Positions 7,976 through 40,945 of a DNA stretch of 64,000 nt are shown here, one piece after another. The notes under the pieces are model-generated. The model did no database searches, was not told where the DNA came from, and saw nothing but the letters and a program-made list of their open reading frames with translations. A program made the position numbers and the translations under genes. The stretch is from Thunnus maccoyii (taxonomy: Eukaryota > Chordata > Actinopteri > Scombriformes > Scombridae): positions 20,524,042 through 20,588,041 of the forward strand of contig NC_056543.1 in assembly GCF_910596095.1 (NCBI RefSeq), in the 5' to 3' direction. The stretch's first letter is position 1; each line of letters opens with the position of its first letter.

Positions 7976-7989
7976 CTAGTAAAAGTAGC

Positions 7990-15690: not shown

Positions 15691-15769
15691 TCAAACCCTA
15701 TTTCCTGAGTTGACCACATATACAGTCAATATGATGTTCAAAAAAAAATTGTCTTTGTTTCAAGGTGGA

Positions 15770-17551
15770 ATGGAGGATTTTTCTAGATATCTGGCCATCA
15801 ACTGGACCTTTTCTTTAATATGTTGCATGTTCTGGATTTTCTCACCTGCAGGTAAAATTCATTTACAACATCTATGACACCACTCTGCTTAAGTTTTTGT
15901 ACAGATTAAACAAATAAGATATAACAAGCTAATTAGTGAATTTTAGAAGTGCTTGTAGGTAGATTTCGAAACTGTTTCCCCGTCTATATGCTAAGGCTTC
16001 AAACTGAATGGGCAGACATGAAAGTGGTATTGATCCCCTAATCTTACTCTGGCAAGACAGCGAATAAGCATTTTGCGCAAACATTTCCTTTAACTGTTGT
16101 GTAACAGAATTCTGACAACATGGTAACATTGAAAATCAAATTCACCATATGAAATGTCTGTTTCCCTCTCAGAAGGATACATAACCATCTCACAGTTGGT
16201 GGGCAGCAAAGTGGTCCTGCGCTGTAACGTGTCTCTCAGCACGTTCGAGCAGCTGACATGGAAAATGAATGGGGTTAACTTGTACAGCTTCAGGCCGAAG
16301 ACACCCTTACATGTCAATGAAGAAGCTGTCCGCCTGAACATAAACATGTCTTTGTCAGAGAGTGAACAGTACGCACTCGTCATGGACCAAGTCCAGAAGT
16401 CTCATACAGGGAACTATACCTGTGAGGTCACAACCCTCCATTCACCCTGGGAACATACGTGGGAGCTGATAGTTACAAATGTGACAGGTGTGTTAATCAG
16501 ACCTAAATTACAGGAAACACAATCCCACACTAAAAAGCTCAAACACACTCACCCTTCTGTCCTCAAGACACAAACACAAAAAGTTGGACAGCAATGGCTG
16601 CACTGTTATTAACTTCATGGTAAATAGTCTCTAAGGGTAGATTTATTACACTGCTTGCCAAAACTCCAAAGAATCTCCTCATCACTTTGTTGTAATAAAT
16701 AGCTTGTCATGTTTTTAGCTTGGATATTGTATTATAATGACATAATGGCAAAATTATGCTTGGGCTGTTTTGAGAGACCACAGGAAATGGGAGCAGCTCC
16801 TCTCCTTCCTTTGTGAAACATTGATCTTACACACACAAATGAAACTGTTTTTCCATGACTGTGAGCTTAATTTAACTACATATTGGGCTTGTTGTGAGTT
16901 TAATTGTGCATTTTGTTTCTTCCTAGACAAAGCTGAAAATCAGAACGAGCTGCCGGTTATTGCTGTGGCAACTATTGTTCCTTGTGTTTGTTGCCTGGTG
17001 TTAATATTTTCTTTGATCCTTCTGAAAAGAGTCTGCAAACAGCATGCACAGTAAGTTACATTTACTTCAAGTCATTCTATAACACACTTTTATTCTCAAC
17101 TGCTAAAATATAAACAAGATACTAAAATCAACATTTCAAACCTGTAAATTTTGGATTCTAGCTCTAATGTCAGTCTCTTTTACAGACATAGCATTCAATC
17201 TCCACACGCAAACATGGTAAGCAAAATAATTATCATTTTGTTATTTGAGAAGATTCACCTAATATACAATCTGTAGAAATATAAGGAATGGAGTTGGTTC
17301 GCTTTGAGTTCAAGTAACAACCAAAGAAAGTAAAGACAAAATCTGTTTTGCAAAGAGACCGAGATCAAAGTGAACTGACTGCAGTAACTGTAAGCCTAGA
17401 GTTCAATTTTTGATTTCTGCTCTTTACCTTTTTTTTCCAACAGCATGAGCAAACAGAAGATATATATGTAAACTGCCTGGAAACTGATGTCAGGCAACGA
17501 CACAGCAATAATCAGCTTTTCAGTAACAAACCCAGTGCTCACTTTAATTAA
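15770..17551 (+). CDS. CD226-like single-Ig-domain receptor, copy A
   Basis: Five exons join in phase: 15770-15851 signal peptide (TFSLICCMFWIFSPA core), 16173-16487 Ig V-like domain, 16927-17050 stalk and membrane helix (IVPCVCCLVLIFSLILL), 17186-17216, and 17444-17551. All introns are GT-AG and the total is 219 residues. The Ig domain has the first Cys in LRCNVS, the core Trp in LTWKMNG and GNYTCEV around the second Cys, with several N-glycosylation sites. The tail contains EDIYVNC, closely resembling the EDIYVN tyrosine motif of CD226 (DNAM-1), where the pYxN form recruits Grb2-type adaptors. Mammalian CD226 has two Ig domains; only one is visible here and the next intron holds no second. 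An upstream in-frame ATG at 15731 is possible. It is likely an activating or adaptor-recruiting leukocyte receptor. The CD226 link rests on the tail motif and gene layout, so orthology is not proven. Confidence 0.8.
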
Positions 17552-17595
17552 ATATGAACAGTTGAAACAGGGTTCTCCTCCCTTCCTCCAGTAAA

Positions 17596-17895
17596 ACCAA
17601 GCTGAATCAGGTGCTTCTCAGTTCAAAGACAGCAAACTTCCAGAGAACAAAAGTGACTGGAGCACGCAGATTAATTCACAAACTTAAATTGTGCAAACAG
17701 ACTAACATTTCGACACTACTGTGTCTTCATCAGAGTCAAAGTGGACAAAGACATGAGGCAAACAACATATGTTATCAACCTAGACCAGGTATGCAGTTGT
17801 CATTAGATAATTGATTAAACAGGGTTTCAAATCTATTTGATAAAGAATCCAAGGGAGGGAGTTGCCATAGTCAGTGTCCAAGCACCACACCCCTA
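17596..17895. repeat. Repeat insertion after receptor A, inverted partner at 28.4-28.7 kb
   Basis: About 300 bases (landmarks GACACTACTGTGTCTTCATC and GACAAAGACATGAGGCAAAC) interrupt sequence that is continuous after receptor B. The reverse complement of the same element lies at about 28420-28720. It is a dispersed fish repeat of unknown class. Confidence 0.65.
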
Positions 17896-17945
17896 ACACC
17901 ATGTCAGAAACAAAAGAACACAAACCTCTCTAAAAGTTACAAAAA

Positions 17946-18270
17946 GCAGATCGGTGGAGTGTCGCAGTGATGGCTGTCCTTCTGGAAGTTTCTCTCATCT
18001 GCACACAGGATCTCTAGAGCTCAACCAGAGTGACCATCGGGTTCTTGGTCACCTCTCTTACCAAGAACCTCCTCCCCCGTTGAGGAGCAGTTCGAGGTCC
18101 ATGATGTGAGTAAGAAGTTTTAAGTTTATGCTGGTGTGTCACAGGGTGCTTGCAAGCTGAGACAAAGGGAAGAGGAGCGGATATGGTGTGTTTAAATACC
18201 CTGTGGTGCGGAAATGGGTTGCGTACAAGGCGTGGTCTTTGGTTCCCGAACTTTGTTTATAAGTCTATAA
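17946..18270. repeat. Second repeat insertion after receptor A
   Basis: About 325 bases starting near GCAGATCGGTGGAGTGTCGC are missing from the equivalent place after receptor B (about 27904), where the flanking sequence is continuous. It contains GGTTCTTGGTCACCTCTCTT, a sequence often seen in fish interspersed repeats. No coding frame. Confidence 0.55.
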
Positions 18271-19499
18271 ACTTCATAAAGATAAAAGTACAAAAAGTAC
18301 AGATACAAACATCCGTCAAGTGTCTCTTTGTTTGCACAGACACACACACACATCTCACTGTGTTGGTTTTGGGGGTATGATCAAATGGCTCTAAAGAAAC
18401 TCTGAGAGAGAAGGTAGCTTTGAACCCTTTGTGACCCCCAGCCATCCTTTCGCCTCCCATAATCCAATGCTGTGGAACCTGAATCAAAGAGAGCCTTCAA
18501 TGAATCACCAAATTGCTGAACACATGAAAGCATTTAACAGCGTTACAATCGAAGCACGATTCTGGTCCTTGTGTACATCTATAAAGTGATATGACTGGAA
18601 ATGTATGATTTTTTGTATTTTGAGAACTGTTGCATTGCCTGTATGTTTGTAAGAAGACATAATTAATCTTTGGAAAGAAAGAAAAGAAAAAAAATCCTTT
18701 TTATTAACTTGTAGTCTGATAGATGTGTAGCAGTATCTTCTTTTGGAATGTGAACCAACACAATAAAAAAGTCACACGTGGTCAAGAAGTGTTGTGTCAG
18801 TGTTTCTCTGCAAAGCAAACACACAAAAACAAAAATAAATTCATTATGATTCATAAAGCTATAACTTTAATGCTAAAACACACTGAAATAATACAATTTC
18901 AAAGGTTCTTGAAGCTGCTGAACTTGTGTAGGACGATAGTGTACTTTAATGAAAATTATGAGGTTCTTGTACTTCAAGTATACTTCAAGTCTGCTGCTAT
19001 TTTAGCAGATAACACTGCACTTTTTTAGTCTATGACATTAATCTGACAGCTAAAGCTACATGTTATTTTGCAGATTCATATTTCAATTTATTAAAAAAAT
19101 CCCCAACAGAATAATTGTTTAAATTGGCTCAGTTTTGACCAGCTGTAGTTTTGAAAGACTTCTTACATGTTAATGCATCAGAAAAAAATCATTTAATAAT
19201 ATAATATAACACTAACTGGGACCATTAAGTACTTTTATTTTTCATAATTTAAATACATTTTGCTGATACATACATATGTACACTAAAATTCACTTAGTGA
19301 ATCATAATGATAAATAAATCACCACCATCTGATTTTTGTCAGATGGATCTTTGTTCTGCATGAGTCGCACCACACTGATAATGTTAGTTTATTATTAGAT
19401 TAAAATTAATAATTTAATGAACAGCAATGTGTATATACACACACATTTCAGTTACTGTGTATACTTGTCATGCATGTGGACTGGAGCCAGTGGTGGAAG

Positions 19500-19850
19500 A
19501 AGTATTGAGATCTCACTCCTGCGTTGTCTTGACAAGGTGACAAGGTGTAGAAACATCTTAAAGATGATCAAGAGAAATTGAAGGCACCTGAGCTAAATTT
19601 CAAGTGCCATAGCAAGGGGTCTGAATACTTATGTCAGTGTGATTTTTCAGTTTTTTCCTTTTTAATTAATTTGCAAAAAAAAAAAAAATGCTTTTGTTTT
19701 GTCATTATGGGGTATTGACTGTAGACTGATGAGGGAAAAAATTAATTTAAATTATTTTAGCATAAGGCTGCAATATAACAAAATGTGAAAAAAGTGAAGG
19801 GGTCTGAATAATTTCTGAATGCACTGTATATGTATACAGATATACAGTGG
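19500..19850 (+). mobile_element. Tc1/mariner-type transposon 3' end remnant
   Basis: Carries the recognisable terminal part of fish Tc1-like elements: GGGGTCTGAATACTTATGTC, a T-rich block with a poly-A run at about 19675, TTGTCATTATGGGGTATTG and GAATGCACTGTATATG. No transposase frame remains. It sits where unit 1 has the 7605-7975 MITE region. Confidence 0.7.
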
Positions 19851-22012
19851 AATTTGTCACATTTTATTCTTTAAATACATTTAACCAAAGAGGATGTAAT
19901 GTGGATTTTTTTACACTGAGCGACAGAAAATGTCAAGGGGAAAACAGATATCTACAAAGTAATCTAAATTAATTACAAATATAAAAAATATAAATAGTAG
20001 AGAAACTAAGGGCCCTAGTTGTTGTTGAGTTAAGTTGAGATACCCCTACCTGAGGTACAACAAAGCATAACCATGTTTTTTCATAACTTTAATATGTTTA
20101 GTTTTTGAAATGGATGGTTGTATAAACATATCTTGCTGCAAAATTAGTTTATTTGGTTGATGTTTGGACCCTCCCCAAGACTGAAAATAGTGAAAATTGA
20201 GGTCTTCTAAAGGTCTACCTTATCACATATATCTCTGGAAATAATGATCAGAATGTCACCAACATTCTGTATTGTATTGTCAATATTCACAGACAGTTAT
20301 TACATACAATAAAGCAAAGATTTCATCAAGAATGAAATTGAATGAAAATTTATACACTTAAACACACATGAATGTGTATGTGTCTGTTATTATTAAAGTA
20401 AGGAGACCAATCACCAAAAAATGTCATTTATATGTACCAAAGACTGTTATCTTGTCATAAAAGTAGGTTATTTGACTATTCACTTCCCCTCTGATGTCAC
20501 CAGCCCCGAACAGGTAACCAGTGCAGCACTTCAAACAGACAAATACAATGGTGGCCTATTGGTGTATATGTGTGAAGAGAAACATACAAACCATAGATTA
20601 AGCCAAAAGTCAAGATATAACTATATATTATAATACACTGTATACAATAATAAACATTTCTTTATCATTCTAAATACATTCTTTCTTTATATTTTTATAT
20701 TTATTTTATATTGATTGACTGATTGAATTGGAAGAATTTATTTGGACTGTTGATTGGACAAAACAAGACTTTTGAAGTCGTCTCCAAGAGCTGCATGCAA
20801 TTATAACAAGTTCACCCTGACGGGTTGAACTGACTTCTAATTTGTGCGTGTGAATAAATGCGTGTGCACGTACACGTTGTTAAGTCAATGGCATCAAAAC
20901 CTCACTCCAGCCAGGTACCCAAAGTTGGCAACCCTGATGTTTGTATCGTTAGCTAACGAAATAGATTGTGTCTGAAGACATCACTCACACGCTTTTTTTT
21001 TTTTGAAAAAAATTTCTGATGTCCTCCGTCTTCTTTATTTTGGGGGGTTTGGATATATCTGCTGAGTTTCTGACTGTTTAAATCGATTTGAATGAGAGCT
21101 CGAGAGCAGAGGGGAGGGGGAGTTGTTCTGCGTGGTCCTATTACGTGCAGCATCTTCTGTTTATTTTTAATATAACGTTGTGCAGGGCACATGGCCCCTA
21201 TGCCCCCCCATAAATTATGCCCTTGCCTGTACACTGTGAGGGGAAACCCATGCAAACACAAGGCGTTCAAACTCCACTTTGGAATTACGATCATAATGCA
21301 TTCTCAGTCAGGATGGAAAGTCTTAAAAACATTCAGCGCAAACGGACCTTTATGATTTCTTACAAGAATGGAGTTAATGATAAAGGGTTGTCAGGATTTC
21401 CACTGAATCACCACCAGGTGGCAGTATTGTACAAAGTATTTTATTACTGGATCCAGCCTTTCTGTCTGTTTAAATGTATGCCCAATCATCTATTTGAATG
21501 GCTGGATTGTACATCTGGTCATTTGGAGATTATTACAACATTAATCAAAATTTATAAATATGCATTCCTCTTTTAAAATCTCTCATTTATAGAAAAGATG
21601 GATGGATATTGCAAATGACAAAAATAAACATTGCAACATCTTTGTATTTCTACTGGTAGTATTCCATTACCACAAAAAAAAAAAAAAAAAAGTTCCTAGT
21701 CAGAAATTCCTAAAATGACATCTACTTCTTCTCTCTCAATAAAATCAACAATCTATGAATATGCAAATATTTTCATTTCACAAGTGTAAGTATTGGACAC
21801 AAGATATCTCCAACTTCAATAAAAAGTTCATTCTCAGTGTTTGTGCACTGGAAGCTTCAAGTTTCCACATCACAATTGTGTAGGTTGCATACTGGACCAT
21901 GATTGGCTCCAAACTAGTTGTTATGTTGCAAATCCTGCTCAGGGATACAAAACTTTACTTTTTGATGAGCACAGAAAAACTTTCCACTTTCAGCAGATGA
22001 ATGTGAAAACAT
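19850..22012. other. Repeat-derived non-coding sequence in unit 2
   Basis: Diverged counterpart of the 8.1-12.3 kb region, with segments in a different order. Includes a poly-A run at about 21674-21690 and another copy of the dispersed segment from about 21690. No gene supported. Confidence 0.55.
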
Positions 22013-22020
22013 CCTCCTAG

Positions 22021-22594
22021 TAGGGGTGTGCCTGAATACAAATACATTATTTGGCAAAGCAGAAATAGTGGGTAGTAGTTTATACTAATATTTGTTTCAT
22101 AAAAATACTAAAAAAAATATTTGTCGGGGATGTTCCCCAGAGATAAAGCTGAGCTACTGACACAAGCAAAGTACTCCCAAGGGACTCTCCATAACCTGTT
22201 GTTCCCCTTCTCCTTTCCACAGATTTAGGTTGTAAAAAATAGGCAATAAATGAAAAGTACAAAGCAATAATTGCCTTTGAAGTTCCTCCCTACACCTTAC
22301 ACAGTGTGCTGTCTCTGTGTTATGGGTGTATAAATAGGAAGAGGTCTTTCTGCATGAGGTGATGAGCAAAGTTTTAGCTCAGCAATCAGCGCAGTTGTCT
22401 ATGATCTGGGAGACTCCAGTTCAAGACCTGATGTGGGGACCTCCCTTGTAAGGCAGTTTATTCATGAACACTTATTGTAACACTTTAATTTTCTAAAATT
22501 AAAAGTGTCATAAAAACAAAAACAGGCCTTTTTAAGCCTCTTTCTACTTTTATTCAAATACAAATACAAATACTGGGATCTCTGCACATCCCTA
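22021..22594. mobile_element. hAT-like element with perfect 8-bp target duplication
   Basis: The 574-base element begins TAGGGGTGTGC and ends GCACATCCCTA, imperfect inverted ends. It is flanked by identical CCTCCTAG at 22013-22020 and 22595-22602, the 8-bp duplication expected of hAT transposition. Related uninterrupted sites exist at about 12284 and 15260 (AACAGCCCTCTAGTGTCAAA). No transposase frame; non-autonomous. Internally, 22370-22430 resembles tRNA A and B boxes. Confidence 0.85.
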
Positions 22595-22602
22595 CCTCCT
22601 AG

Positions 22603-25600
22603 TGTGAAACTCATACAGCAGTCTACACAGTGAAGCTCAAACATCCAACTGAAGTAACAGGAAGAAAAACATTTTTGAGTGGGACTTAAACAAATTTCTA
22701 TCATGGCAAACTCATTACGCTGCATGACACAATATTTTCACATTATTTAATTGATTTTTTAAAAATTTGACTGAATTGGAATAACTTTTTGGACTGATGA
22801 TTAGACAAAAGAAGACATTTGAAGTCATCTCCAAGAGCTCTATACAATTATAACAAACATTTTCATCAAAAATGTCAGACATTTCCTGACATTTTATGGA
22901 CAAAACTATGAATCGATGAATCAAGAAAATAATTGGCAGACTCACTGATAATGAACATAATTGTTAGTTGTAGCCCTATGAGTCTTTTATAAGTTCTGCA
23001 TTCAAAATTATACTTTTTTAAAAGTACGTCTATTGGAATATTTTATCAGCACACAGTAATGTCACCCATTACCACTGAGAGTCAAATCATCACAGGTGGA
23101 TTTTACTATAATTTATCAGTGTCTGGCATGAGTTATGATTTGTCAACAAGAGGAGAGTTTCAGCAAGAAAAATGAAGAAATCTGATATAGTTTGATCACA
23201 GATACTCTAAAACTCATGATGAAAGAGAAGTGTGGGATTTATTTTATTTACTCCAGGCAAGAGAGCGTTTTATGAATGCACAACCTTATCAACCATGGTG
23301 CTGAAGATGAAAATTAAATACAGGCAAACACAAAGAGTCAAATTCACTGTTCAGATATTAATGTGATGATAATTTGCCTCCTTTGATGCCAACACTTCAC
23401 CCACTGTGTGTGGTTGTTCCACATCCTGCTGGTCTGTGTCATATTTAAGCAGATTTAAAGAAGTGGGTTGCAAGTTACCCAGGAAGTGAGTGGCAAGTAC
23501 TCATCTATCTTCAGTTGTAGTTTTTTCCCTTGTTTTAGGCTAAACAGTTTTAATTTGACAAAATGCATTTCACTATTGGCTTTAGTGTACTTTGTTCATG
23601 CTAATTACACCATTATTATGAAACTGATGCTGTTGTTCTTTAAAATTAAGGCACAGAGTTTCTTTTGACTATTAAAAGTACAAATACATTTTAAAAACAC
23701 TGAACATAAAAAAAATAATGGGGAATCTCAAAACTGAGGATATTCACACTCTCAGAAGGTATACTGTATGTAAAACAACATGGTCATGCTTCAGGTATTG
23801 TTTTGAATGCCAAATTTTATTTTAGATGCAGAAATGTAAATGTCACTGTTCTGGCTCAATAGGATCCAGCCTCTCTGTATTTGTTTAAAGATATGCACAT
23901 CACAAGGAAAAGTGAGAGCTGAATCATCTATTTGAATGGCTGGATTGTACATCTGGTCATTTGGACATTATTGCAACGTTAATCAAAATTTATAAAGATG
24001 CATTCCTAAAATCTCTCATTTATAGAAAAGATAGATAGACATTTTAAATGACAAAAATAAACATCACAACATCTTTGTACTTCTAATAGTAGTATTCCAT
24101 CACCACTATCAAAGCTTTCAGTGAATCTGCCCTCCACACATATTCTATACTTTTAAACTGAGTTAATTTATTATTTGCCACTAGGGGCACAGCAACTCCA
24201 AAACAAGCTGGCATGCACACACAACCCAAATGTGTTATCACTTTAGTGCCTAGGGCAACATCCTGCTTGAGTTGTGTTTCTGGCCACCTGATAAACATAT
24301 GTCTAATAGTCATCATCCTTTTAGTTCTGGTTTGGTTTGGGAAGTTTATGTTTCACCTCTGTTGTTTGGTGATTATTCAGCAAAACACAAGCAAGATCAA
24401 AACCAACTCCTTAGATAAGGGGTGGTCAGATTCTCTTTTGAATAAACATTTTTTCATTTTTTCATAGGAAAAAAGCACAGGATGTTTTGATACAGTGAAT
24501 ATTTTCTTCAAAGAGAAGCACATGGGCATTTTAGATTTAGGATATTTAGCGGACATCTGTGTCATTTGGACAAACTCAACCTGCAGAGAAGCTGATACAA
24601 AGAATACTCACATTCATTAACTAGCTCAATCTCTTAGGACGCTTCTGTATAAGAGGACTTGACGTACAGTATTTTCCTTGCGTGTCAGACGCAGCTGACA
24701 CACTAAAAATATTTTGAGAACAGATTCCATGATGGTGAAAAGTCAACAGATTATAATTCAATACCACTTTCTCTGCCAAACTGAACTGCGCTGAAGCAGC
24801 TGTGTTTTAGTAAAACTGTGCAAATACAGGAATATCTCAATGTCATACAGACTGCATTTAGACTACTCTCAGTGTTCGGATCAACATGCATCGACATTAG
24901 TTTTTCTACTCTCTGACACAAAAGTGAATCGAGTTGTTCCGACTGTGTTGCTTACATTGCGTCAGATTTGGGATATGGTTTGCATGTTTTCATGTGACTT
25001 TTGAAAGCACACATCTATTCAAGATAAAAGAGCTGTGATGAGATGGGTGATTGAAATTTCCAAAAACACCCCCATGCTATTGTGCAAAATTCCATTTCAT
25101 TTTCATTTCATACACGCTAACATTATGACACATCCCATGTTTACATTTTCATTTTCAGGGTGCACAATGTCTGCCAAAATGAAGATACATCATCCGTTAT
25201 TCATCCATATTTTTGCAGGTTCATATTTTTTGTTTGTAATGACGCATTTTCAAACATGAAAAAGAAAGTAAAAAAATGTAATGTGACCTAAGGCCTCTCA
25301 AACTCAGGGGGTCTTACGAGTAGAACAGTACAACTCAGGGTTTATTCACATTTTTCAATAGATTGTCTGCAATAAATGTCTGAGTAAAGACACAGCATGG
25401 TCTGTCACCTCAAAGAAGACAAAGCACATAACTCAAATGTCCACAGACCACCAGTGTCATACAAACATTCACTTCCTGTGTGGAAACCACCTCTGGTGTG
25501 TGTGTGGCCCGGCCAAGCTTGAACTTAACACCTCAGATGCATGCAGCTACGGTGTCATACATTGTAGCTGTGAGTTTTAATCATCATTACTGCTGTAAAA

Positions 25601-25685
25601 TCCTACTCACCACCGGTAAGTAAATGTAGTTACTAAATTTATTGCACTGTATCTGTGTTTGGAAAGGATGTTTTATATGATTCTT
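22603..25685. other. Non-coding remainder of unit 2 before receptor B
   Basis: Aligns piecewise with 9.1-10.2, 11.5-11.9 and 12.5-13.1 kb of unit 1. About 355 bases at 24725-25075 have no partner in unit 1. The position equivalent to the LINE in unit 1 is an uninterrupted site near 25312. No gene supported. Confidence 0.55.
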
Positions 25686-25992
25686 AATGGCAGTTTTATT
25701 TATAATTTTACAGTCACATTATTGTTTAATTCAGATCTTATGACATGTATTGTGTTATTTTTTTCATTTTGTCAGTTTGTAACGTATAGTTATTGCCTCT
25801 TATATTGGCCAGAACACTCTTGAGAAGCAGATTTTTAATTTCACTTAGGCTTTATTTGTTAGTAAGTAAAGTTTAAATAAAAATACAATATTTGGGCAAA
25901 ATACCAATTACATTCAAACCCTATTTCCTGAGTTGACCACATATACAGTAAATATGATGTTCAAAACAAAATTGTCTTTGTTTCAAGATGGA

Positions 25993-27809
25993 ATGGAGGA
26001 TTTTTCTAGATATCTGGCCATCAACTGGACCTTTTCTTTAATATGTTGCATGTTCTGGATTTTCTCACCTGCAGGTAAAATTCATTTACAACATCTATGA
26101 CACCACTCTGCTTAAGTTTTTGCACAGATTAAACAAATAAGATATAACAAGCTTATTAGTGAATTTTAGAAGTGCTTGTAGGTAGATTTCGAAACTGTTT
26201 CCCCCGTCTATATGCTAAGCTAACTAGCTGTCAGCTCTGGCTTCAAACTGAATGGGCAGACATGAAAGTGGTATTGATCCTCTAATCTTACTCTGGCAAG
26301 ACAGCAAATATAAATTTTGTGCAAACATTTCCTTTAACTGTTGTGTAACAGAATTCTGACAACATGGTAACATTGAAAATTAAATTCACCATATGAAATG
26401 TCTGTTTCCCTCTCAGAAGGATACATAACCATCTCACAGTTGGTGGGCAGCAAAGTGGTCCTGCGCTGTAACGTGTCTCTCAGCACGTTCGAGCAGCTGA
26501 CATGGAAAATGAATGGGGTTAACTTGTACAGCTTCAAGTCGAAGACACCCTTACATGTCAATGAAGAAGCTGTCCGCCTGAACATAAACATGTCTTTGTC
26601 AGAGAGCGAACAGTACGCACTTGTCATGGACCAAGTCCAGATGTCTCATGCAGGGAACTATACCTGTGAGGTCACAACCCTCCATGCACCCTTGGAACAT
26701 ATGTGGGAGCTGATAGTTACAAATGTGACAGGTGTGTTAATCAGACCTAAATTACAGGAAACACAATCCCACACTAAAAAGCTCAAACACACTCACCCAT
26801 CTGTCCTCAAGACACAAACACAAAAAGTTGGACAGCAGTGGCTGCACTGTTATTAACTTCATAGTAAATAGTCTCTAAGGGTAGATTTATTACACTGCTT
26901 GCCAAAACTCCACAGAAGAATCTCCTCATCACTTTGTTGTAATAAATAGCTTGTCATGTTTTGAACTTCGATATTGTATTATAATGACATATTGGCAAAA
27001 TGGCAAAGTGCTTGGGCTGTTTTGAGAGACCACAGGAAATGAGAGCAGCTCCTCTCCTTCCTTTGTGAAACATTGATCTTACACACACAAAGGAAACAGT
27101 TTTTCCATGACTGTGAGCTTAATTTAACTACATATTGGGCTTGTTGTGAGTTTAATTGTGCATTTTGTTTCTTCCTAGACAAAGCTGAAAATCAGAACGA
27201 GCTGCCGGTTATTGCTTTGGCAACTATTGTTCCTTGTGTTTGTTGCCTGGTGTTTATATTTTCTTTGATCCTTCTGAAAAGAGTCTGCAAACAGCATGCA
27301 CAGTAAGTTACATTTACTTCAAGTCATTCTATAACACTCTTTTATTCTCAACTGCTAAAATATAAACAAGATACTAAAATCAGCATTTCAAACCTGTAAA
27401 TTTTGGATTCTAGCTCTAATGTCAGTCTCTTTTACAGACATAGCATTCAATCTCCACACGCAAACATGGTAAGCAAAATAATTATTATTTTGTTATTTGA
27501 GAAGATTCACCTAATATACAATCTGTAGATATATAAGGAATGGAGTTGGTTCGCTTTGAGTTCAAGTAACAACCAAAGAAAGTAAAGACAAAATCTGTTT
27601 TGCAAAGAGGCCGAGATCAAAGTGAACTGACTGCAGTAACTGTAAGCCTAGAGTTCAATTTTTGATTTCTGCTCTTTACTTTTTTTTCCCCACAGCATGA
27701 GCAAACAGAAGATATATATGTAAACTGCCTGGAAACTGATGTCAGGCAACGACACAGCAATAATCAGCTTTTCAGTAACAAACCCAGTGCTCACTTATAT
27801 GAAGTATGA
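25993..27809 (+). CDS. CD226-like single-Ig-domain receptor, copy B
   Basis: Exons 25993-26074 (signal peptide), 26417-26731 (Ig V-like), 27179-27302 (stalk and membrane helix), 27438-27468 and 27696-27809 have the same phases and near-identical sequence to copy A; total 221 residues. The Ig domain differs at a few sites, for example FKSKTPL instead of FRPKTPL, MSHAGNYTCEV instead of KSHTGNYTCEV, and LHAPLEHMWEL instead of LHSPWEHTWEL. Most of these are amino-acid replacements. The EDIYVNC tail motif is kept. The C-terminus differs: the frame continues to HLYEV and stop, while copy A ends HFN. An in-frame ATG at about 25954 also exists. Everything needed for a functional receptor is open. Confidence 0.8.
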
Positions 27810-27945
27810 GCAGTTGAAACAGGGTTCTCCACACATCCTCCAGCAACATTAACAACATGTCAGAAACAAAAGAACAAACAAACACAAACCTCTCTAAGAG
27901 TTACAAAGATAAAATTAGAAAAAGTACAGATACAAGCATACGTCA

Positions 27946-30900
27946 TGGATGACAACTCAAAGGAAACATGACAAATTCAGTTCCACAGTGGGCTCCACTG
28001 TGTTCCACTGAGTGTAAATCCATCATGCCTCTCTGTGGAGCAGTGAGGTGAGGCCTTTTCCATTCCCCAGAACTTTAATGATGCTGCAGAGCCTTGGTTA
28101 GCCAGTGCATAATGTCCAGCAATAGCATAGTCCGTGTTTTGTGAATGTAGTGCAGTCTTATGTTCAGATATGTGAATCTTTAAAGCTCTTTTAGTTTAGT
28201 GTTTTGTTTACATAAACCAGACCAGAGGGACATTTCAGCATATAGACAACATGTGCGCTGCTGCAGTTAATGAAGTATTTTTACCAGTATGTGGATGTGA
28301 TGATATAAATGACATATGACAAAAATGAAGAACTGAATATGTCATGTTTCCTTTAATATGTCACATTTGACGGATATTTGTACTTGTTTTTTAACTTCTG
28401 TCCTTGTAACTTTAAGAGAGGTCTATGTTCTTCTGTTTCTAACATGTTGTTAAGGATGTGTTGCTTGGACACTGACTATAGCAACTCCCACCAGTGGACT
28501 CATTATCGAATACATTTGAAACCCTGTTCAACCAATTATCTAATGACAACTGCACATCAGGTTTAGGCTGATAACATATTATGTTTGCCTCATGTCTTTG
28601 TCCACTTGATAAAGACACAGTAGTGTTGAATTCTTAGCCGTTTGCACAATTAAAGGCTGTGAATTAATTGGTGTGGTCAAGTCCCTTTTGTTCTCTGTAT
28701 GAAGTATGAACAGCAATAAATATGAAGTGCAAAAAGCAAGGGCGCACTGAAAGTGGACTAATGTGTGAAATATCTCATCATTTTATAGGAAATTAAAGAC
28801 ATAATATGTAACTTTTCCACATTACAATGTTTAAAAAACATCACTGTGTATTTAACACCCACAATAACAACCATGTCTAGAACACATAGGGCATTTTCAC
28901 ATCCTCTGTCTAAAATTCTTTTCACTCTGAATAGTTACTTCAGTCTTTAAGCCCACTTGGTGATCAGTTTGATGTACAGTTTCAGTGTGCTGGGTGGAAA
29001 ATACATCATGCTGTTACACTTATAAATTTTTGGAGAAATAAAATACAACAGGTGTGCATAGTGTCTTGTCATGATCCTGTGTGGCTGATCAATAATACAG
29101 AGTAAATCTCTAAGTCTAGTATATTATGAGGAAAGCATGATTTCCCGATTTCTAACGTTACAAACTAGAATGAATGTGTCTGTCCTGTGCAGCTGTCAAA
29201 CAGCAGGTATTATATGCTAACATTACTTTTTTGCTTTCATGCTTACGTTACTCTTGTGAGGGGGGCTTCTGTGCTTTTAACTCATCCCGCTGGTTGATGG
29301 TTTGGGACACAATCAGTAAATTTTTCACTGCCTGTAAAGCTAATGTTTTATGTTAGTTTTATCACTGCTACTGGCTACCATTTTTTTTACTGGAATATGT
29401 GTCATATGTCTGCTAGCAAGAGCTGATAGATACCTGTCAAAGGGGGTGTGTGGTTTAAAAAAAAAAGTTTGGGAAATGCAAGGATAAGTGTTGCATACAA
29501 ATTCCCATCTAAACAGTAATTTTAATGGTTTACAGCCCGTTGCTTTATTTCTAAATATTGAAAATGTCCATATATAATCTTTCAGGACATTGTGGCTACA
29601 TATATTCTGCACCCTTGCTGCATGCACATATTGCATGAGGTCATGGAACATAGAGCAGCTGTACTAATAAGGCTGTACATGTAAGATTGTGGTAACCCAC
29701 ACAAGAAAACAGTTCTTTTCATTTAACACCATCTAAATAAAGAATAGCAGTGATGGAGGTGGCAATGATGTGGGAGGCAATGTTTGTCATCTTAAGACCT
29801 CTAGTAGTTATGCTGGTTTAGGATTTCATCATCTTTAAAAATACATGCATTTCAGGCAGCAATGTTTTTGTTTCTATGTTCAAAATTGGTCATAAATATT
29901 TGGAATGAAATCTGACGAAACACTGCTGCTGCAATTAACCCATTAGGTTCATTAATTAGGGAAGTAAATACAATCAGAAAAGAGCCCATATTTACATTAC
30001 TGTGATGTTTGGGGAAAACAGGAGCCACTCTGATAAAGAGTGAACCGGCATTGTCCTGGTAACCAAGGCCAGGGAGATGGCTCTAGACAATGCATACATT
30101 CATGGGCACAATCAGACATTCAAACCAGAATGTGCTGATGGTGACCTGAAGCTCCATGCAACATGACCTGAATTAACACGGGTAAAGTGCAGCTCCTTGT
30201 TTAGAAACTAAATGAGCCAGTAAGACTAATTTTTCATATTGTGGGATGATTTGATGGGGTTTAAGACTAAAAGTCAGACCTTCAGAATGCAGAACAGCAA
30301 GAGACGACATCTTGTGCAGACCACCTTGATGTTTACTGTTACATGTAACCTAGGTGTATGAATGGTACTAAAACAAAGTTTACTTTGCTTCACCATTGTC
30401 ATATTCCAGTTATTAATCTTACGTAGCCACAAACAGATACATCACCTCATCGCTTTGCATCCTGTAAACAGCTGTGATTAAAAAATAAAAATAGTATTAA
30501 AAATAAGCTGCGTCTTTCTTTCATTTGCTTCCAAAACAAATGCCAGATCAAAATCTTTACGACATGGGTGGTGGTGCTCATGGGAAATGCAGTCTTCATT
30601 CTGGGAAATACTACCACTTTTGTCCACAGGGGCTGCCAAAATCACACAAAATGAAAGTTCCTTGTAGTAGCTTCGATAATAAGGATGTCACAAAGACCAG
30701 CTGAGACTCATGAGTTACAGTATTTTCAGTAGAGCTCAGATTCTTTGTGAGTTTTTGTAAATAGTTGTAATTAAACTTAAAGGATGGGTTGTAATTTTTC
30801 ATATCTGACTTAATACAATACTTACATGCCATATGTACTGATAGAGTTATGAATCATTGTGATCTTTCTCCTTGTTTACACTCACCCTGAAACAATATCC

Positions 30901-31099
30901 TTGCGGTGTCACTGCACTGTGGGAAAGAAAATCTAGTCTCCCTTTGGTGAAAAATGTAATTTCAAAGCTAAGCCAAAGCTTAAGTAATCTAAGTAAGCCA
31001 ACTTCACCAGTATAGATGCATATGATATGTGAGTATTCTATTAAAAAAGACTTTAAAATAGTGTGTGGTGATGGATGTAACACAATGAGCAACTCTTCT
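27946..31099. other. Non-coding, repeat-bearing intergenic sequence
   Basis: No gene supported. Contains the inverted partner (28420-28720) of the repeat at 17596-17895. The rest is AT-rich sequence in which nothing further could be identified. Confidence 0.55.
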
Positions 31100-31103
31100 T
31101 TAA

Positions 31104-31612
31104 CCCTTTCATGCATGAATTATGATAACCTCAGTCAGAATTTTTATTTTTTTTTATATAGTGTTTTTATTCCTCTTTAGGTGTGAAAAAAATATTTGAA
31201 CTTCATTTTTTTTAAACACACATTTTTCAAGGAGTTTGTCCAACTTAGTGGACAGATGATTAATTGTCATTTTCTCCCAATATAAAATCAATACTTGGAA
31301 ATTTTAACAATTGTATTACTCCTTAGTTGTTACTTGATGTTACAAAATTTTATTTACCTGCAAGGGTCTATTACTATAGAAGGATTGGCAAGATATTCCT
31401 GAGCTATTGAGCATTCCTAGTCGGCCGGCAGCCATCTTGGTTTTGAGAAATTTGTGTTGCACTTACAAAGGCTGGCCAATGGATGGCAGTGTATGGGATG
31501 ACACACTAGAGTCCACTGTGTTGGCTGATGTGCAACTATACCATTAAAACCCATGCATATATAAGAAAACAGCTTTTGAATAGCTGTCCACTGTAGTGAC
31601 CACTTGAAAGGG
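31104..31612. mobile_element. piggyBac-type MITE in TTAA sites
   Basis: The element is bounded by TTAA at 31100-31103 and 31613-31616. Its ends are CCCTTTCATGC and its reverse-complement match GAAAGGG. TTAA target duplication with a CCC start is the signature of the piggyBac superfamily. It is about 510 bases with no transposase frame, so non-autonomous. Confidence 0.75.
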
Positions 31613-32389
31613 TTAAATACTTCAATGAAAAATTGCTCTTAAAATATTTTTTCTCTGGGATCAGAAAAGTGCCTGTACACTGGGTTAAGTGAGGTCAACC
31701 CTTCCAGTGAGAGACATTTTTATCCTCATAAGACTAGCCTTGTGACAGCCTTGTGACAGCCATTATGCCTCCACATGGTCTGTAATGATAGAGTCACAAG
31801 GGTGTGGTCTGTTTTGCTGCTTTTTGGAATGTGAGAGAGTGCAAATTGTAAATACAGATATAGAACAGAACACTGAGGCATTTGTAATGTTTATCTGGAT
31901 GTATAATACAGACGACGCAAGTAACAAACAACACATTTTGTCTAGCAACAAGGGAGATAATTAAAGAACACACGGTGGAAATGTTTTAAGTCAAAAAGGC
32001 ACACGCACAAAAAAAAGTGAGTAAATAAATTCAAGCCAAACACGAAAGTTCACTAACTGTTGTCAAACCCCTAAAAACTAGAAAGAAACATAACAAAATC
32101 CCAAAAATTACAGCATAATTTCACTATAAAGCAAACATATAATAAAAGACCATCATTATTATTAGTCATTATTCTTATTATGTAAACCATGTTTGAACCA
32201 GGTTGGGTGTGTTTACTGTCCTGCTTTGTTGATATTGACTGAAGAAGATTATTCCAAGAGAAACTGTAGCCTACCTCCAGCCCAGAGTGACTGGAGAACA
32301 CTAAACAAAGATTTCAGTGTCGTATAAATACATATCTATAGATAAGTAAAACCAAAATTTGACAAAAAAAAAATTCCTGTAATGTCACC

Positions 32390-32800
32390 ATTAAATTGGC
32401 ATTTTTGTTTATGTGTGGGATGTCTCAACAACTATTGGCTTGATTGCCATTAAATTTTAGTGCAGATGTTCAAGGTCCCCAAAGGGTGAATCCTAATAGC
32501 TTTTCATCTAGGGCAACCAGCAGGTCTCAAGTTTCAGTAGTAGTTCAGTAGTTTGGTTTTGATATTCTTGGTACCCAGATAATGTATCCTGATAACTTAA
32601 GTGGTCCCCAAAGATTTCCTCTTATTTCCACCAGAAGGTTGATATTTTTAGTTGAGAGCCAATGGTCTAAACAATTATTAGATGGACAATGTCGGTTTGT
32701 TGACCACTTTGTACTTTGTGTTTACGGGCATGTTAACATTGTTATTGTTACCATGTTGGCATATTAACGTTAGCATCAAGCTCAAAGCATTGTTTCAGCA
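32390..32800. repeat. High-copy dispersed fish repeat
   Basis: Contains the phrases CAACAACTATTGGCTTGATTG, GGTCCCCAAAGGGTGAATCC and CCAGCAGGT, and ends in TTAACGTTAGCATCAAGCTC. I recognise this as a widespread interspersed repeat type in percomorph fish genomes. Its class was not determined. Confidence 0.5.
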
Positions 32801-33499
32801 TGACCCAGCTCTAAAACTCACAAATAAATTGAATGTACTGCACTAACAATAAGCTGTGGTCTAAAAATGCACAAGTCTACTGTGTACCTGGATGCTTGTT
32901 TCTTTCTCAGATCAGTCTGCAAAGTGGTTTACATGCAGGTCAACAGGATGTTGTCGTGCATGGAGATGCAGTGAAACAGTTAACATTACAGAGTAATCTA
33001 TTTTGCAGAGTTTGCAACATATAACTTCATTTTGACCTTAAAAGAATATGGATACGTCCTGTAATGCTGTTTTTGCTCACTTCTTTCATGGGTACACACA
33101 TAACTATAGAGTTCAAAGCACAGCAGTTGTGTAACACTGATGCCAAAAAGATAAAGCCTGTTCCACACTGGGTTTTCCCAACACTAATATTACAAACAAG
33201 TAAAACAAGTAACAACATTTGATAAGTGATAAAGCACATACACATATCAACTCAAGAAAACACTTTTAAGATAAGATCTTCTCCACTTTAAAACATCATG
33301 ACAAAAAGCTGCAGATGCGTATAACAAGAAACACATTCAAGAAATATGTCTGTACCGCTTTGAACTCTCTTGGCAACCAAATATAGGACATCATCATGAA
33401 TGGACAATTATGTGTTTTTTATAGAGGTCATAGTTAAAGGTGGTGTTGTACTATGGAGGATATTTTTGGTCATAATTATAATTAAAAGTCAAAATAGAA

Positions 33500-34440
33500 A
33501 ATTAAAAGAGACAAAATTAGTGTGTGATTGGTACAAACATGCATCTACTGCTGTTCAAAAGACGGACCAAAACAGGAATGGATGTTGTCACAACCTTGCT
33601 TGTCAAACTAAAGAGCGCTCGAAAGGTCTTTGGCTGCTTTATCACCAACAGCTCCAACTTCCTGTAGATAAGCTCTGTATATGTTTTCCCACCAACCGTC
33701 TTAACTGCTAAGTGTAACAGAGGTTTAAAGTGCCTCTGCGGCCCAGCCGTTTAATTTACATACAGCTTGAAAAGCCAAATGACAAATGTGAAATGGTAAA
33801 TGCCTAATGGAAAATAGAAAAGATGAAATTTAAAATGGCAAATGGTAAAGTGCAAATGCAAAAAAATATTGATTTATTTTCTTCTATTTAAGCTTTTAAT
33901 TTAAGTATTCCCATTTAAGCTTTTCCATCTCCCATTTTGAGTTTCATATTTGTATTTGTTTTATTTATTATATTTCTCTTTTCTTATTTCCATTGCCATT
34001 TTCAACTTCATCTTTAAAATTTAAGCTTTCAGTTTGAACATCGTAGCACAGGGTTCAGTGTGATACGGTTTCGGAAAAAGCCACATTCTGACAGCATAAA
34101 AAATTAATATTGTAGAGTATGTTCAAAACATACAGACGCAGGTTTATAGTTAGTAGTTTTCATTCTTGGTTTGCTGTATGCTGCCTTTTGGATTGAGTAC
34201 TGTAGTAGCGTCGGCCCCTTTAAAAGTGATTTTATTTCTTCTCATGCTAAATTCAGTCATAATGAAGTCACACTTTGTGGAAAATATGTCCAGAGCTTAT
34301 CTGCCTACTGCTGGAGCCATTGGTGATAAGCAGCCAAAGAGATTTCGAGCTCTTTTGACAGTTTGCCAAATCAGTATGTGAACAGCAGTTGATGCGTGAT
34401 TGCACCAAGACAGTAGCAAACCCACAACCCCCAAAAGCAA
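33500..34440. repeat. Nested inverted-repeat (palindromic) element
   Basis: Outer arms at about 33530-33690 and 34265-34410 are reverse complements with some divergence; both contain GCATC(T/A)ACTGCTGTTC and TCTTTGGCTGCTT. Inner arms (AATGGTAAATG / AATGGCAAATGG runs at about 33775-33870 and their complement at about 33890-34030) form a second palindrome. Possibly one DNA transposon inserted inside another. Not coding. Confidence 0.6.
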
Positions 34441-34885
34441 ACCCAAGTTTGCTAGTAGTAGTAAGACTCCAGGGAAACTGATATAAATAAATACACAGCA
34501 TCTGCTCTGTTGCATCTGTTAACAGGAATGTTAATGACGGAGCCAGTTAAATGCCTGCAGTCCAACTGTTCTCCATCCAGTTGCTTCCATGGTTGTCACA
34601 GAGATCTCTAAAAGGAGACAATTCAATATATTTAGTTAACATTCAATTTCAAATGAGTCTGTGATGAGTTTCAAGGTATCTACGGATTACTGAAAGAAAA
34701 TATTTTTTAAACTCAATTTAAAAATGTAAAAATGACAAAACTGACAAAACATGTGTAATACTCTAAACAAATACTAAAACAGAAAAGATAAGCAGATAGA
34801 CATAATATCAAAACAAAAAAAAGAGACAAAGTTTTAAAGGCACAAAGATTTTACTTTGATGGAAATTTAAAAGAGCCATAAAGCA

Positions 34886-37800
34886 TTATAACAAATTTAA
34901 TATACATCTTTCTTTTGCCTCCGCTTGTGTACGTAGATCCACTGTCTCTTCTGCTCCACGAGCCCCATCAGGTGAACCTGAAGTTGTTGGGACTGCCTGC
35001 CTGTCCGTTGTCCTTGATTATGAACCACCAATTAATATACAACAAAAGACTTACATATATACATATGCTTGTTTATTTAGCAGTATTACTGTATATTACA
35101 CTGAAGTAAAGTGCTACTGTACTCAGTACCTCCAAAATTTCCCAGATTTATAAAAGTACCACACTGCAGCAGCAGCTCCACTCAGGATAAGCAAAACAAA
35201 TAAGGTCCAACAAGCACTGCATCCTCCTGTAGGGAGACAGGACAGAAGAGAGGAGAATGCTATAATACTGGTATAATATATTGTACATTGCCTGTTTATT
35301 TGGTGCGTCTAGCTAAATCTAATACAGTCCAATACAACAGCCCTCCAATCTTAGCTTATTCAGTTTTTGTTTACACTGTGTCAGAGAGGTATTGACTCGA
35401 TCTCAAGGTCATTTTGGTGGCTTTAGTTTGTGATGCTATTAAGGGGAATTTCATGATATGGAAAGACTTTTACATGACTCCATTTATGTCAAAGAGGTAT
35501 CAGTAATAAGCAGCCCAGAGGTTTTTGTTGGTTGCCAGACAACCTCACAGTAACAACAAAACTCCAGGAGGTTTAATGGCCTTGTTCTGTTCATTCATTC
35601 ACACGAAGTGGTGGTCATGGTGAGCAGAGGCTTTGCAGTGAAATGATTAATGACTCTTCCTTCAGTTTCTTCCTTAATGTTGTCTTAACTAACATTCTTT
35701 ACCGGTATCAGGTATTTATGGGAGAAAACACAAGCACGCATAACCTCAGCATAAATACGGCATAACCCCTTAATGCAGACGTTTAAACGAAGCTTTACTG
35801 CACTCGGGCAAGAAATAGTTACAGCACAGAATTCCCCCTAAAACCACAACATGTTGTTTTTACATTTCTGTTTCATATTTAGCGTACAGACAAGAAAGTG
35901 GTATCCTTCTTATCTAACTTTTGGCAAGAAAACAAATAAGCATATTTCTTAAAAATGTCAAACCATTCCTTTAATAATTATAATCTCTTGTTATTGGAAA
36001 AGCATAATAACCCAATTTTTAATTTACTGATATTTACATCCTTTACTAATAAGAATAATGTGTTCTTTTTTCCACTTTACATGAAGTGTTGTTATCATAT
36101 TTACTATATTTATATATTTTCCCCGTAGTGCATTGGGTGGAGTGTGGGCAGATGTAAATAGATAGAAATCCTCTGGGAGAAATTTTAACCCACTTTTGGC
36201 AACTGTAGGTCTGTCCTTGGTTGCCCTCTCAGTTGGGCATAGCTGGAATATGTTCACAGGGAGGTGTTCAAGTGGGCATGAACAATCTGCTCTGACTTCC
36301 TACTTCATGTCCGAGCTTTTCATCAAACAAAACCACAACAGACTCAAATTCAAAAACACAGAACAAGAATGAATGCAAAAGACACAATTTGACAAAACCC
36401 CCACAGTCAAATCAAACCTGACCTCACCTGAAATCACATGCAAATAAAGGCGACCATGTTTTCTTCCATATGAATTAGATGCCTCGCATTGGTACTCGCC
36501 ATTCAGGTCAGAGGTCATGCTCGAGAGGTGAAGCACTGCACCCTCTGCTCTGACAGCAGACTGAGGCCATGACCCATCAGATCTGAAACAAACAAAGCTC
36601 AGCATGGAATGTAAAGCTAATTTAAGACTTACAGCCATGAGGCAGAAAAAATGCTATAATTTTTGCTAAAACTGTACAGAGCTGTGCCAAAAGTCAAATG
36701 AATCTCAATTGTTGGTTCTTAATTTGTGTTTCTAAGTTTGCTAATTTCTAACTCAGACCCTATTAGAATTAGAGCTGCAATGATTAGTTGATCGACAGAA
36801 AATTAGTCGGCAGCTATTTTGATAATTAATTATTAAATTCCCTTGTTTCAGCTTCTTACATTTTATTTTATTTGTTTATTTAAAGTTCCGTATGTAGGAA
36901 TCAGAAATTCCTTCTCATTAGTGACACCTGTGGCCATAAAATAAGCTGTAGTCAACATCCTGGTGCTCACTATTGCAGGTGATGTCTTTTTCCTCACTTA
37001 CACTTCTCATAATACATAAAAGATCTCTAACATTGTGTTTCTAGTTGTATGGTACAGTTTTTTTGTGGAAGAGAGGCAAGGCACTCGGGAGCGAGCAAAA
37101 ACATATGTTGTCATTTATGTTGGATTTTCACGGATTTGTTTCTATTAGTAACAGCTACACTCAAGTTAACAACACGTTATGAAAGGCAGGATTAACATCA
37201 TTTTTATTGGTAGAATACATGAGACTTGTCAGACTAGACTGTGAACTTCTGGGCCCCCCGAGCAAAGACGAGGTCATCATCAATTATAGAACTGAAAATT
37301 AAAATGAAAAACATTTTAACAAGGTCTGAGTTGCAAAGCAGCGAATCTATTCTTTAAAGCTCTATGTGATAAAAAATGCTTTTTTTCCTCCTCTCTGTTT
37401 TGTCCAACCAAATTTCAATTTCAGAATATACAATTCAAACTCAGAGAACAAACAGCAAGACTCTTTCACCTTTGTTCAAAGTCTGTGAGAATGACAAACA
37501 AAACAAGGTGTCAAGGTTATATATTACCTGTTTGTTAAAAAAACTACCTCACCTGCTCCAGGTAAAGTTGGCGGGAGGGTTGGCTTCAGTTACACATTGA
37601 AATGAGTTATCTGATCCACTGATACTCACTTCCATGGGTGAGACTGTGAGAAACAGGGAGAGAGGATGAGCTATATTATGACTCACCCTGAACAAGGTTT
37701 TTAATTTTCATCTCTACCCTGCTCAGTACTGGACATTACAGAGGTCTTTCTGAGATGCATTTCTCAAATTTACAAATGTTTACAATACACAAAGGCCTTT

Positions 37801-40516
37801 AAATATACCAGCTGGCAAAAACTAGTCTGCTTGTTTAGACTGGATTTGCTGCATTTGAAAGATTGCTGTTGTCTTTTTATAAATAAGGCTGTTTCTCAGT
37901 ACTCATCACACAGGAATGTTTTACTAACCGACAACAGACAGGCAGTACTGCATTGTCCCTTATTCTTTGACCTGCAGATAATGTTCTGTCTACAATAGTC
38001 CCTTTATAGAGCTGGCAGGAGAAATTGAGGCGTGTTCACTGAGTGATGTGGGACTCTCCCACACAGTCACTAGAAGCTAGAGACCAGATGTCTGTAGATT
38101 AGCAGTGTAATAAAAAGGCTCCAAATTGTAAACCTGTTCTTTAAGGTTATTGGAAAAAGAAAAGGTCACACCTGCACTGATATCAAAATTTCACTGCAAT
38201 CAAAACATTATCTATTTAAAGAAATTTGTGGTTTGGGGTTAGTGTACTCTTTTCATGAATAGCAAAATAATTATTTTTTGTTTCACAGTTTAATAGTATT
38301 TGTAAACCTTCAAGGAGTAACACAAACCCTGAAAATCGTGTTTTTAATGACATACAGAAGTTGTTTAACTCCTAAGGACAGACACACATTGTTGTACCAA
38401 GCAGAGCATCTTGATATGTCTTAATAATTGTATGGAGGGGATCTTTAAACATCAAATCTATTTTTAAAGGTCTGTCACACTGACATCCTATGTATGCATC
38501 TAACTGAAATAAACGCACTGCTCACAATGCACTGAACACTTATGCAGACAGCAGTCTGTAAGCTGACTCTATATTGGGGGCTGTCATATGTCATTAACTG
38601 AAACTTCTGGCTGCCATTTATGTAGTGAATTGCTCATTATGCTGCATATGAATTATGTGTGTAATACAGGAGTATGTATAACTATGTCCAAGCAAAGATC
38701 ATATAATATGACTGATTGACACTCTCTTAACTGGAATACTGTGCATGTACTACAGTATGTGTGCAGGTGTGTCCTCAACTCAAGTCACTAAGTAGTCAGT
38801 TATTTAAACCCTGAAATAACAAAGGTGCAGTGTGTAGGATTAAGTGGCATTCAGCGGTGAGGTTGCAGATTGCAAAAAAAAAAAAAAAAACCCTCCCCCT
38901 CCTACTCCCCTTCAAAGTGTGTAGGAGAACCTACGGTGGCAGTGAAACTCGCAAATAACATGAAAGGCCCTCTCTAGAGCCAGTGTTTGGTTTGTCCATT
39001 ATGGGCTACTGTAGAAACATGGTGTTGCAACATGCTGGTCTCCGTGGAAGGGGACCCGCTCCCTATGTGGATATAAAGGGCTCATTCTAAGGTAACAAAA
39101 AGACAATGTTTGAAAACAATTGATTTTCAGGTGATTATACTCTAATTAAAACATACTAATGAATATTTTATTCCATTCCTGCCAAGTTCATTTTGCTAGA
39201 TGCCACTAAATTCTACACACTGCACCTTTAAAAGATTCTCTCTCTTGTCTTAAGGCGTTTTCACAATTGGGTTAATTCAAGAGATTACCAAGAGTTTCAA
39301 GTGAACTTTGGTACAACTAAAAGTCCAGTGCTAAAGCCCCATGGGAAGGTCTGCTACTGAAAGATCACAAGACAGTAAGCTAGTAGCTGGAGAACTAGCT
39401 AGCTTCTGATACTGCCTATAACTTTGACCTGAGATGGCATTTTGCTCTGCCTCTTTCTGGCCTGACTGTGCCCTTTGTCTTTTTTCTAGCTGATTTCTTC
39501 ATCTCTGTCTTGAAGAAGAAAAGCCCCTTTCACAGCCTGTTTGTTGAAACATGAAGCAACAGCAATGGAGAGTAACACAAGGGATGATGTCACAGTCACA
39601 AAGGGAATTCACACCAATAGCTGTTTAGCAGCCTTAAGAGTAGATCACAAAAGAAACAGACAAATGTATTGTACAAGGCAGTCAATGAATTTTTTGGCAC
39701 ACATGGATCCTTGATACTTGTGTGTTTTTGTCTAAAGAAATGTTGAGAAACAATCATATCTGAACAACAGACAATGTTAAAAAATGATTACAATTAATAA
39801 TTGTATGAAAATCACATGTAAGGCTATTGGAAAAGGAAAAGGTTACAAGGAATTTGACAAAACTGAATTACAAAATCCATTGCAACAACAAAGCGAGAGG
39901 ATGACCAAGGTGTTCCTTGAAAGGTAAGATCAACTTCTTCCTGAGCTCATCTAAATCAGACTATTTGACTAGTCCCCCCCCTAAATCACTGGGAAAGAGG
40001 TTTCTCCCAGCATAATTATTGACCTGGAAATGTGCACAATACGTCACCTTGAGGATGAAAAAAAAAAAAAAAAAAAAAAATCAACAAGAAAAATAAACTA
40101 CATGAGAAACTGGTTTAGGGAAGTAAGTCTATACCCACAGTAGACCTGTATGGTGAAGGGCAGGATCTTTTCTTTCGACAGGGCTACACTGGTGACGACA
40201 CACTGGACTGAATGCTGGTTGATTTCTCTGGTGGGTACCCCAAACAGCGAGCTGACTGTGGTGGTCGTACCGTTGTCATGGTGGGTAGAGTTGGTTATTG
40301 GCTTCACCTTTTCTGTCAGAGTATCAATTTGCCACTTCACCTCTGCAGGAGGCCGAGACCCTGCAGCCATGCAGGTAACAAGGGAAACCTCTTGATTACC
40401 CAAGGTAGGACGATTGTCCTTCAAGCTTGTGATGGGAGGCACTAGGGGAGTTAACGTACATAATTAAGTCAACATGCAAGCAAGAAGATAAAAACAAGAC
40501 ATTCTCTCTTTCTCCC

Positions 40517-40571
<55 letters not shown>

Positions 40572-40945
40572 ACAGATCATTTTAACACAAAGTTTTGTCA
40601 TACCAAGAAGGTTTAGATGTATCTCTGTCTTGTAATTTCCACTGGGGAACAAAGTGAAGATGCATGTGTAAACACCTTCATCCGAGAGTGAGACATCGGA
40701 TAACTGGATAGATCCATTGAAGTCAGTAATGCTCCCAACAAATTGAAATCGATCATCCTTTCCATTGTGAAAACGTGGTATACCTGTGTCAGTGATTGTA
40801 AAAAAATTAACAATTTGTGGTTTTCCTCTGGTATTCTTCTGCCAGGAAATCTGTGTCAGGCTTTCCTTTGTGTCAGTGAGTTTGCAGGGTAAGATAGCTG
40901 TCTCTCCTTGCACCACAGTTATTTCTCCTCCAGTCACCTTGACAC
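34886..40945 (-). CDS. Nectin/PVR-like membrane protein with three Ig domains (signal exon not found)
   Basis: Six exons, minus strand: 40604-40945 (Ig V), 40139-40441 (second Ig), 37553-37643 and 36428-36582 (third Ig, split), 35130-35226 (membrane helix) and, tentatively, 34886-35012 (tail). Phases agree at every junction. The V domain has ILPCKLT, the core Trp in QISWQKN and DEGVYTCIFTLFPSG, the nectin/PVR signature around the second Cys. Domain 2 has TCMAAGSRPPAEVKW; domain 3 starts MEVSISGSDN, as in PVR, and ends GEYQCEASNSYG. The helix LFVLLILSGAAAAVWYFY is followed by a short tail without the C-terminal PDZ ligand of classical nectins. Such proteins mediate cell adhesion and are ligands of CD226, TIGIT and CD96. 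A first exon with signal peptide must lie beyond 40945 but is not recognisable. The tail-exon acceptor is weak, and a stop would also follow directly after the helix exon. Confidence 0.8.
36765..36870. repeat. hAT-type dispersed repeat fragment
   Basis: Intronic fragment beginning AGAGCTGCAATGATTAGTTGATC. It belongs to the same common fish family as 41160-41440, 53760-53990 and 58670-58890. Confidence 0.6.
38821..39229. mobile_element. MITE with clear terminal inverted repeats
   Basis: Starts AAAGGTGCAGTGTGTAGGAT and ends with its near-perfect reverse complement (TCTACACACTGCACCTTT). It lies in the long intron between the second and third Ig exons of the nectin-like gene and has an internal poly-A run. 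A related copy is at 7605-7975. It carries no protein. Confidence 0.8.
40058..40080 (+). repeat. Poly-A run
   Basis: Uninterrupted A run of more than 20 bases, just downstream (in gene sense) of the second Ig exon of the nectin-like gene. Confidence 0.8.
40510..40566. repeat. CT then CA compound microsatellite
   Basis: A (CT)n run followed directly by a (CA)n run in the intron after the V-domain exon of the nectin-like gene. Confidence 0.9.

Follow-up and report, generated by a model that had tools for sequence, protein, structure and literature searches.

Receptor genes of the window and their CD226-type tail motif

We analyzed a 64-kb window of the 782-Mb Thunnus maccoyii genome (C11:20524042-20588041), which contains two immune-type receptor genes (A and B), a nectin-type gene with three immunoglobulin (Ig) domains, and a family of smaller one-Ig genes (Table 1). 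An initial annotation had described the receptors as duplicated, five-exon relatives of CD226 that might bind the nectin-type protein. We could rebuild both receptor genes in five exons, with every intron GT-AG and the reading frames open. Their V domain has phase-1 introns on both sides. The transmembrane (TM) segment contains no charged residues by eye, and the tail has only one tyrosine, which lies inside the motif EDIYVN. A scan of both strands showed that EDIYVN is encoded twice in the window, at 17456 and 27708, each time in frame in a last exon. The reported gene structure and CD226-type YVN motif of the tails were thus upheld. A genome search with the receptor TM and tail (eight matches at expect value (E) ≤ 10) found no other EDIYVN receptor; four of the matches were the window's own exons and the remaining ones had E 0.19 or worse. 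Among ten receptor matches at E ≤ 1, the third-ranked (C24:4953447, E 0.077) was rejected, as it showed no Ig domain by eye.

The two receptors were indeed nearly identical copies, and self-BLAST showed that they belong to a tandem duplication, patchy but for the most part collinear, that pairs 6.4–17.6 kb with 18.3–27.8 kb. Identity was 96% across the receptors and 81–94% in other pieces, with one 103-base piece at 99%. The introns of A and B were 97.2–98.5% identical; because they are more alike than most of the flanking pieces, gene conversion may have acted on the receptors. The V exons of the copies differed by seven nonsynonymous and two synonymous changes, and the whole frames by 11 and two. 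Nonsynonymous divergence (dN) was about equal to synonymous divergence (dS), at a distance where selection is neither demonstrated nor excluded.

Table 1. Coordinates of features in the window (position 1 is its first base)
Feature	Position	Strand	Description
Receptor A, 219 aa	15770..17551	+	five exons encoding a signal peptide, a single Ig V domain, a TM segment and the tail HEQTEDIYVNCLETDV
Receptor A exons	15770-15851, 16173-16487, 16927-17050, 17186-17216, 17444-17551	+	rebuilt from sequence
Receptor A last exon with EDIYVN	17444..17551	+	exon rebuild, motif scan
Receptor B, 221 aa	25993..27809	+	anatomy as receptor A
Receptor B exons	25993-26074, 26417-26731, 27179-27302, 27438-27468, 27696-27809	+	rebuilt from sequence
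Receptor B last exon with EDIYVN	27696..27809	+	exon rebuild, motif scan
Tandem duplication	6388..27843	.	self-BLAST
Nectin-type V exon	40604..40945	-	FG loop CIFTLFPSGN
Nectin-type second Ig exon	40139..40441	-	SRPPAEVKW; Pfam C2-set_2 9.3e-13
Nectin-type third Ig, first half	37553..37643	-	intron directly after W
Nectin-type third Ig, second half	36428..36582	-	read past donor: hydrophobic end, stop at 36300
One-Ig copy 1	60514..61178	-	signal, V and TM exons open
One-Ig copy 2	52759..53411	+	signal, V and TM exons open
One-Ig copy 3	49059..49722	-	TGA in V exon
gja8 (connexin 50)	3042..4388	+	flanking marker gene; start placed at MGDWSF by counting in open frame

The further claim that the receptors belong with CD226, TIGIT and CD96 was not supported. 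PMC9263721 describes AX6G as a lock that members of the CD226 family carry in their first V domain. In the V-domain alignment, this lock was not present in the receptor sequence, and the key T[F/Y]P was missing from the FG loop, which reads CEVTTLHSPWEH. None of the best 60 of 68 PDB matches to the receptor was CD226, TIGIT, CD96 or a nectin, whereas CD226, TIGIT and CD96, used as positive controls, each recovered another protein of the family or a nectin with E no higher than 1e-6. Human CD226 (46 matches in the fish genome at E ≤ 1) and human TIGIT (46 matches at E ≤ 0.1) had no match inside the window.

A clear CD226 gene was located at C21:14516900-14520700 (human CD226 match E 2.8e-14), with two V domains, a YVN tail, the lock AVFHPEFG and a key within VQTFPQGPW. 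The receptors resemble CD226 (DNAM-1) in being type I proteins with a V-type Ig domain and a tail of the form D/E-I-Y-V/M-N; their EDIYVNC fits five of the six positions of the CD226-family tail D/E-I-Y-V/M-N-Y. Past YVN, the receptor tail showed no likeness to the tail pieces of the C21 gene. CD226 differs in possessing a second V domain and in carrying both lock and key in its first, whereas each receptor has a single V domain with neither motif; the CD226 gene also occupies another place in the genome. In a V-domain tree, from which a short nectin row from C15 was left out, the four CD226-family rows did not group as a clade, one of 17 inner branches was starred, and approximately unbiased (AU) tests rejected no placement of the receptors, the CD226 group included. 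A structural model of the receptor V domain, built from a four-row alignment, was too poor for use (mean predicted local distance difference test (pLDDT) score 62), and a fold search gave no match at E ≤ 0.001. Judged by sequence, A and B do not have the appearance of CD226 orthologues.

As a separate observation, 41 of the 46 genome matches to human TIGIT lay in a large cluster of V-type Ig exons at C24:9.55-10.69 Mb.

The nectin-type gene and the C11 neighborhood

The initial annotation had also reported a three-Ig nectin/PVR gene about 7 kb beyond the receptors. A linked gene of nectin type was confirmed, but it lies on the opposite strand and its nearest exon is 8.6 kb from receptor B. With exon ends counted from the sequence letters, its four open exons gave 297 codons and no stop. 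The top PDB match was nectin-1 (115.5 bits, E 3.4e-32, positions 16-295), followed by nectin-3 and PVR with the three domains covered, and the first 16 rows were all nectin/PVR (among the best 60 of 1090). The gene shares with nectins the V-C-C domain order and a third Ig domain split after W, an intron site that it has in common with this genome's nectin-1-like and nectin-3-like genes. It differs from nectins in having no AX6G lock and in the key, as LFPSG stands in the alignment at the place of T[F/Y]PxG. Apart from its own two exons, nothing in the fish genome matched it better than E 3.7e-8 (68 matches at E ≤ 0.1). Both sequence and gene structure mark the gene as a nectin, though a divergent one. 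The scanned stretch offered no convincing candidate for a signal-peptide or TM exon, and no cytoplasmic end was found; an incomplete gene is one possibility, a more distant position of these exons another. PMC7286890 treats the evolution of nectins, with additional nectin-like proteins in bony fishes.

The segment 100–200 kb past the window (C11 20.690-20.785 Mb) contained gsk3b, cfap91, a BTLA-like gene, a CD200/PVR-like V-V-C gene (the likeness was searched with its second V and its C domain), a V-C gene that is CD200R-like by eye (Pfam gave only Ig models), and PDZ exons resembling PDZK1 by eye. Apart from the PDZ exons, these genes resemble the human 3q13 immune cluster of TIGIT, CD200 and their neighbors. 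The fish region differs in also having gja8 and the PDZK1-like gene, which are on 1q21 in human, and in that the nectin-3-like genes of the fish are on C6 and C13. Human TIGIT maps to 3q13.31 and CD200 to 3q12-13, according to PMC13257397. Because C11 resembles 3q13 in this way, the linkage of receptors and nectin may be an old neighborhood.

About 44 kb separates a nectin-3-like V exon on C6 from another V exon, which is CD96-like by eye; with human CD96 the latter reached a Z of just 6.4, a value exceeded by five of the remaining 19 rows. At C25:2298088-2298534, a CD200/nectin-like V exon continues without interruption, so that a single 208-aa open frame covers it and the Ig domain that follows.

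Origin and possible function of the receptors

We give a probability of roughly 0.6 to the reading that A and B encode an orphan, duplicated one-V receptor outside the CD226/TIGIT/CD96 group, accompanied by a separate divergent nectin in an old, 3q13-like neighborhood. The receptors are recent tandem duplicates, type I with one V domain, and are probably displayed on leukocytes, where the V domain, nearest to CD47 in sequence, would bind a putative ligand. Phosphorylated EDIYVN would recruit Grb2 and deliver a co-stimulatory signal, as in CD226; because the TM segment offers no charged residue for an adaptor with an immunoreceptor tyrosine-based activation motif (ITAM), signaling would depend on the receptor's own tail. 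The three-Ig nectin would take part in trans-adhesion, its partners being other nectins or the true CD226. Receptors and nectin lie in an apparent fish counterpart of the human 3q13 Ig-superfamily cluster, and their linkage is most simply that of an old neighborhood. The receptor is thus left as an orphan within a cluster of a probably known kind. Among the open-access literature matches listed, none was, by title or start of abstract, a paper on such receptors or on the fish cluster.

The genes located here in a single fish genome include CD226 and others of nectin-3-like, BTLA-like and CD200/PVR-like type, and our results tell the true CD226 apart from a look-alike that has the tail motif alone in common with it. 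If the look-alike signals via Grb2, fish would gain an extra co-stimulatory receptor with a putative ligand.

A different origin is suggested by CD47, a protein that spans the membrane with five TM helices. The receptor V domain was nearest CD47, weakly, by shuffle Z, with nectin-3 and the one-Ig family next; the similarity includes WK-NG--LYSF ... SHTGNYTCEVT. CD47 was also the best PDB match (among the best 60 of 68), Pfam V-set_CD47 scored 25.4 bits in the receptors (cut-off 21), and the receptors were the best V-domain matches among the seven that human CD47 found in the 782 Mb at E ≤ 1. These data could mean that the V domain came from CD47, with the five-pass region swapped for one TM segment and a Grb2-type tail. 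Such an origin would agree with the failure to find the five-pass CD47 membrane region in the genome, in a search whose controls were silent too, which left it with no positive control. We nonetheless consider it unlikely. The genome-wide scores were weak (E 0.066 and 0.072), and three generic Ig models outscored V-set_CD47, which was non-specific: it flagged nine of 13 genome matches above cut-off, one of them scoring above the receptors and one passing only together with its neighbors in frame. When four V domains of the window were combined in a profile, generic Ig hits came first and CD47 was reached at 2e-6 (among the best 60 of 1190). The receptors have one TM exon and a YVN tail in place of five helices, and IFT57, the neighbor of CD47 in human, is at C12:30.09 Mb, not on C11. 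The pairing of receptor and CD47 in the V-domain tree had support of 72/76 and joined two long branches. The likeness to CD47 is a lead, not membership. One further match to human CD47, on C23, was discarded as noise, since it spans only residues 141-226 and contains two stops. The accessible portions of PMC9866520 and PMC9652883 held no information on gene location or on fish CD47.

More doubtful still is the proposal that a fish lineage combined a CD47-type V domain and a CD226-type Grb2 tail in a one-pass signaling receptor, with no five-pass CD47 detectable. If true, it would place a fish-specific self-recognition co-stimulator inside a BTLA/CD200/nectin cluster.

We regard as quite improbable the receptor-ligand cluster of the initial annotation, in which CD226-like receptors bind the linked nectin-type protein and are inherited together with it. 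The tail motif and the proximity of the genes speak for it. The argument from proximity is weakened, however, because nectins are expected to be linked with immune V-domain genes, given the 3q13-like setting, the C6 pair, and the single immune linkage group that JAM/CTX and nectin genes are described as forming in human (PMC2777377). The receptors lack lock and key, their PDB matches named above include no CD226-family member or nectin while family members reach each other or nectins, a bona fide CD226 is on C21, and human CD226 and TIGIT have no match in the window; the pairing is therefore without specific support. The least probable account, in which the duplicated receptors and the one-Ig copies represent recent repeats that are broken in part and drift without function, would fit dN ~ dS between the receptors and the stop and truncation in two one-Ig copies, but all splice sites and reading frames are intact in both receptors.

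One-Ig family and other elements

The single-Ig family that had been noted further along was verified, with three copies in the window, one of them with a stop; this copy 3 looks like a pseudogene. The genome yielded five matches at E ≤ 0.001, of which the window contains three (49.3, 52.9 and 60.7 kb), with the other two just past it. Counting letters puts the end of the TM exon in phase 2, and comparisons of the family rest on the V domain; a structural model of that domain from a four-row alignment reached pLDDT 46, too poor for use. Around these genes, at 47.0–64.0 kb, direct and inverted duplicates are interleaved, the three longest being 93–96% identical.

Retroelement reverse-transcriptase fragments (RVT_1) were present on the + strand at 13325-13738 (3.7e-7) and 43522-43920 (2.8e-4, under cut-off). 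An open reading frame on the + strand at 54751-55200 resembles a Tc1-type transposase by eye, and Pfam had no match to it at E ≤ 0.01. The stretch 2868-4388 matched Pfam Connexin (1.4e-101) and Connexin50 (2.1e-31), identifying gja8, whose C-terminal tail contains an EPEK/EPER-rich repeat.
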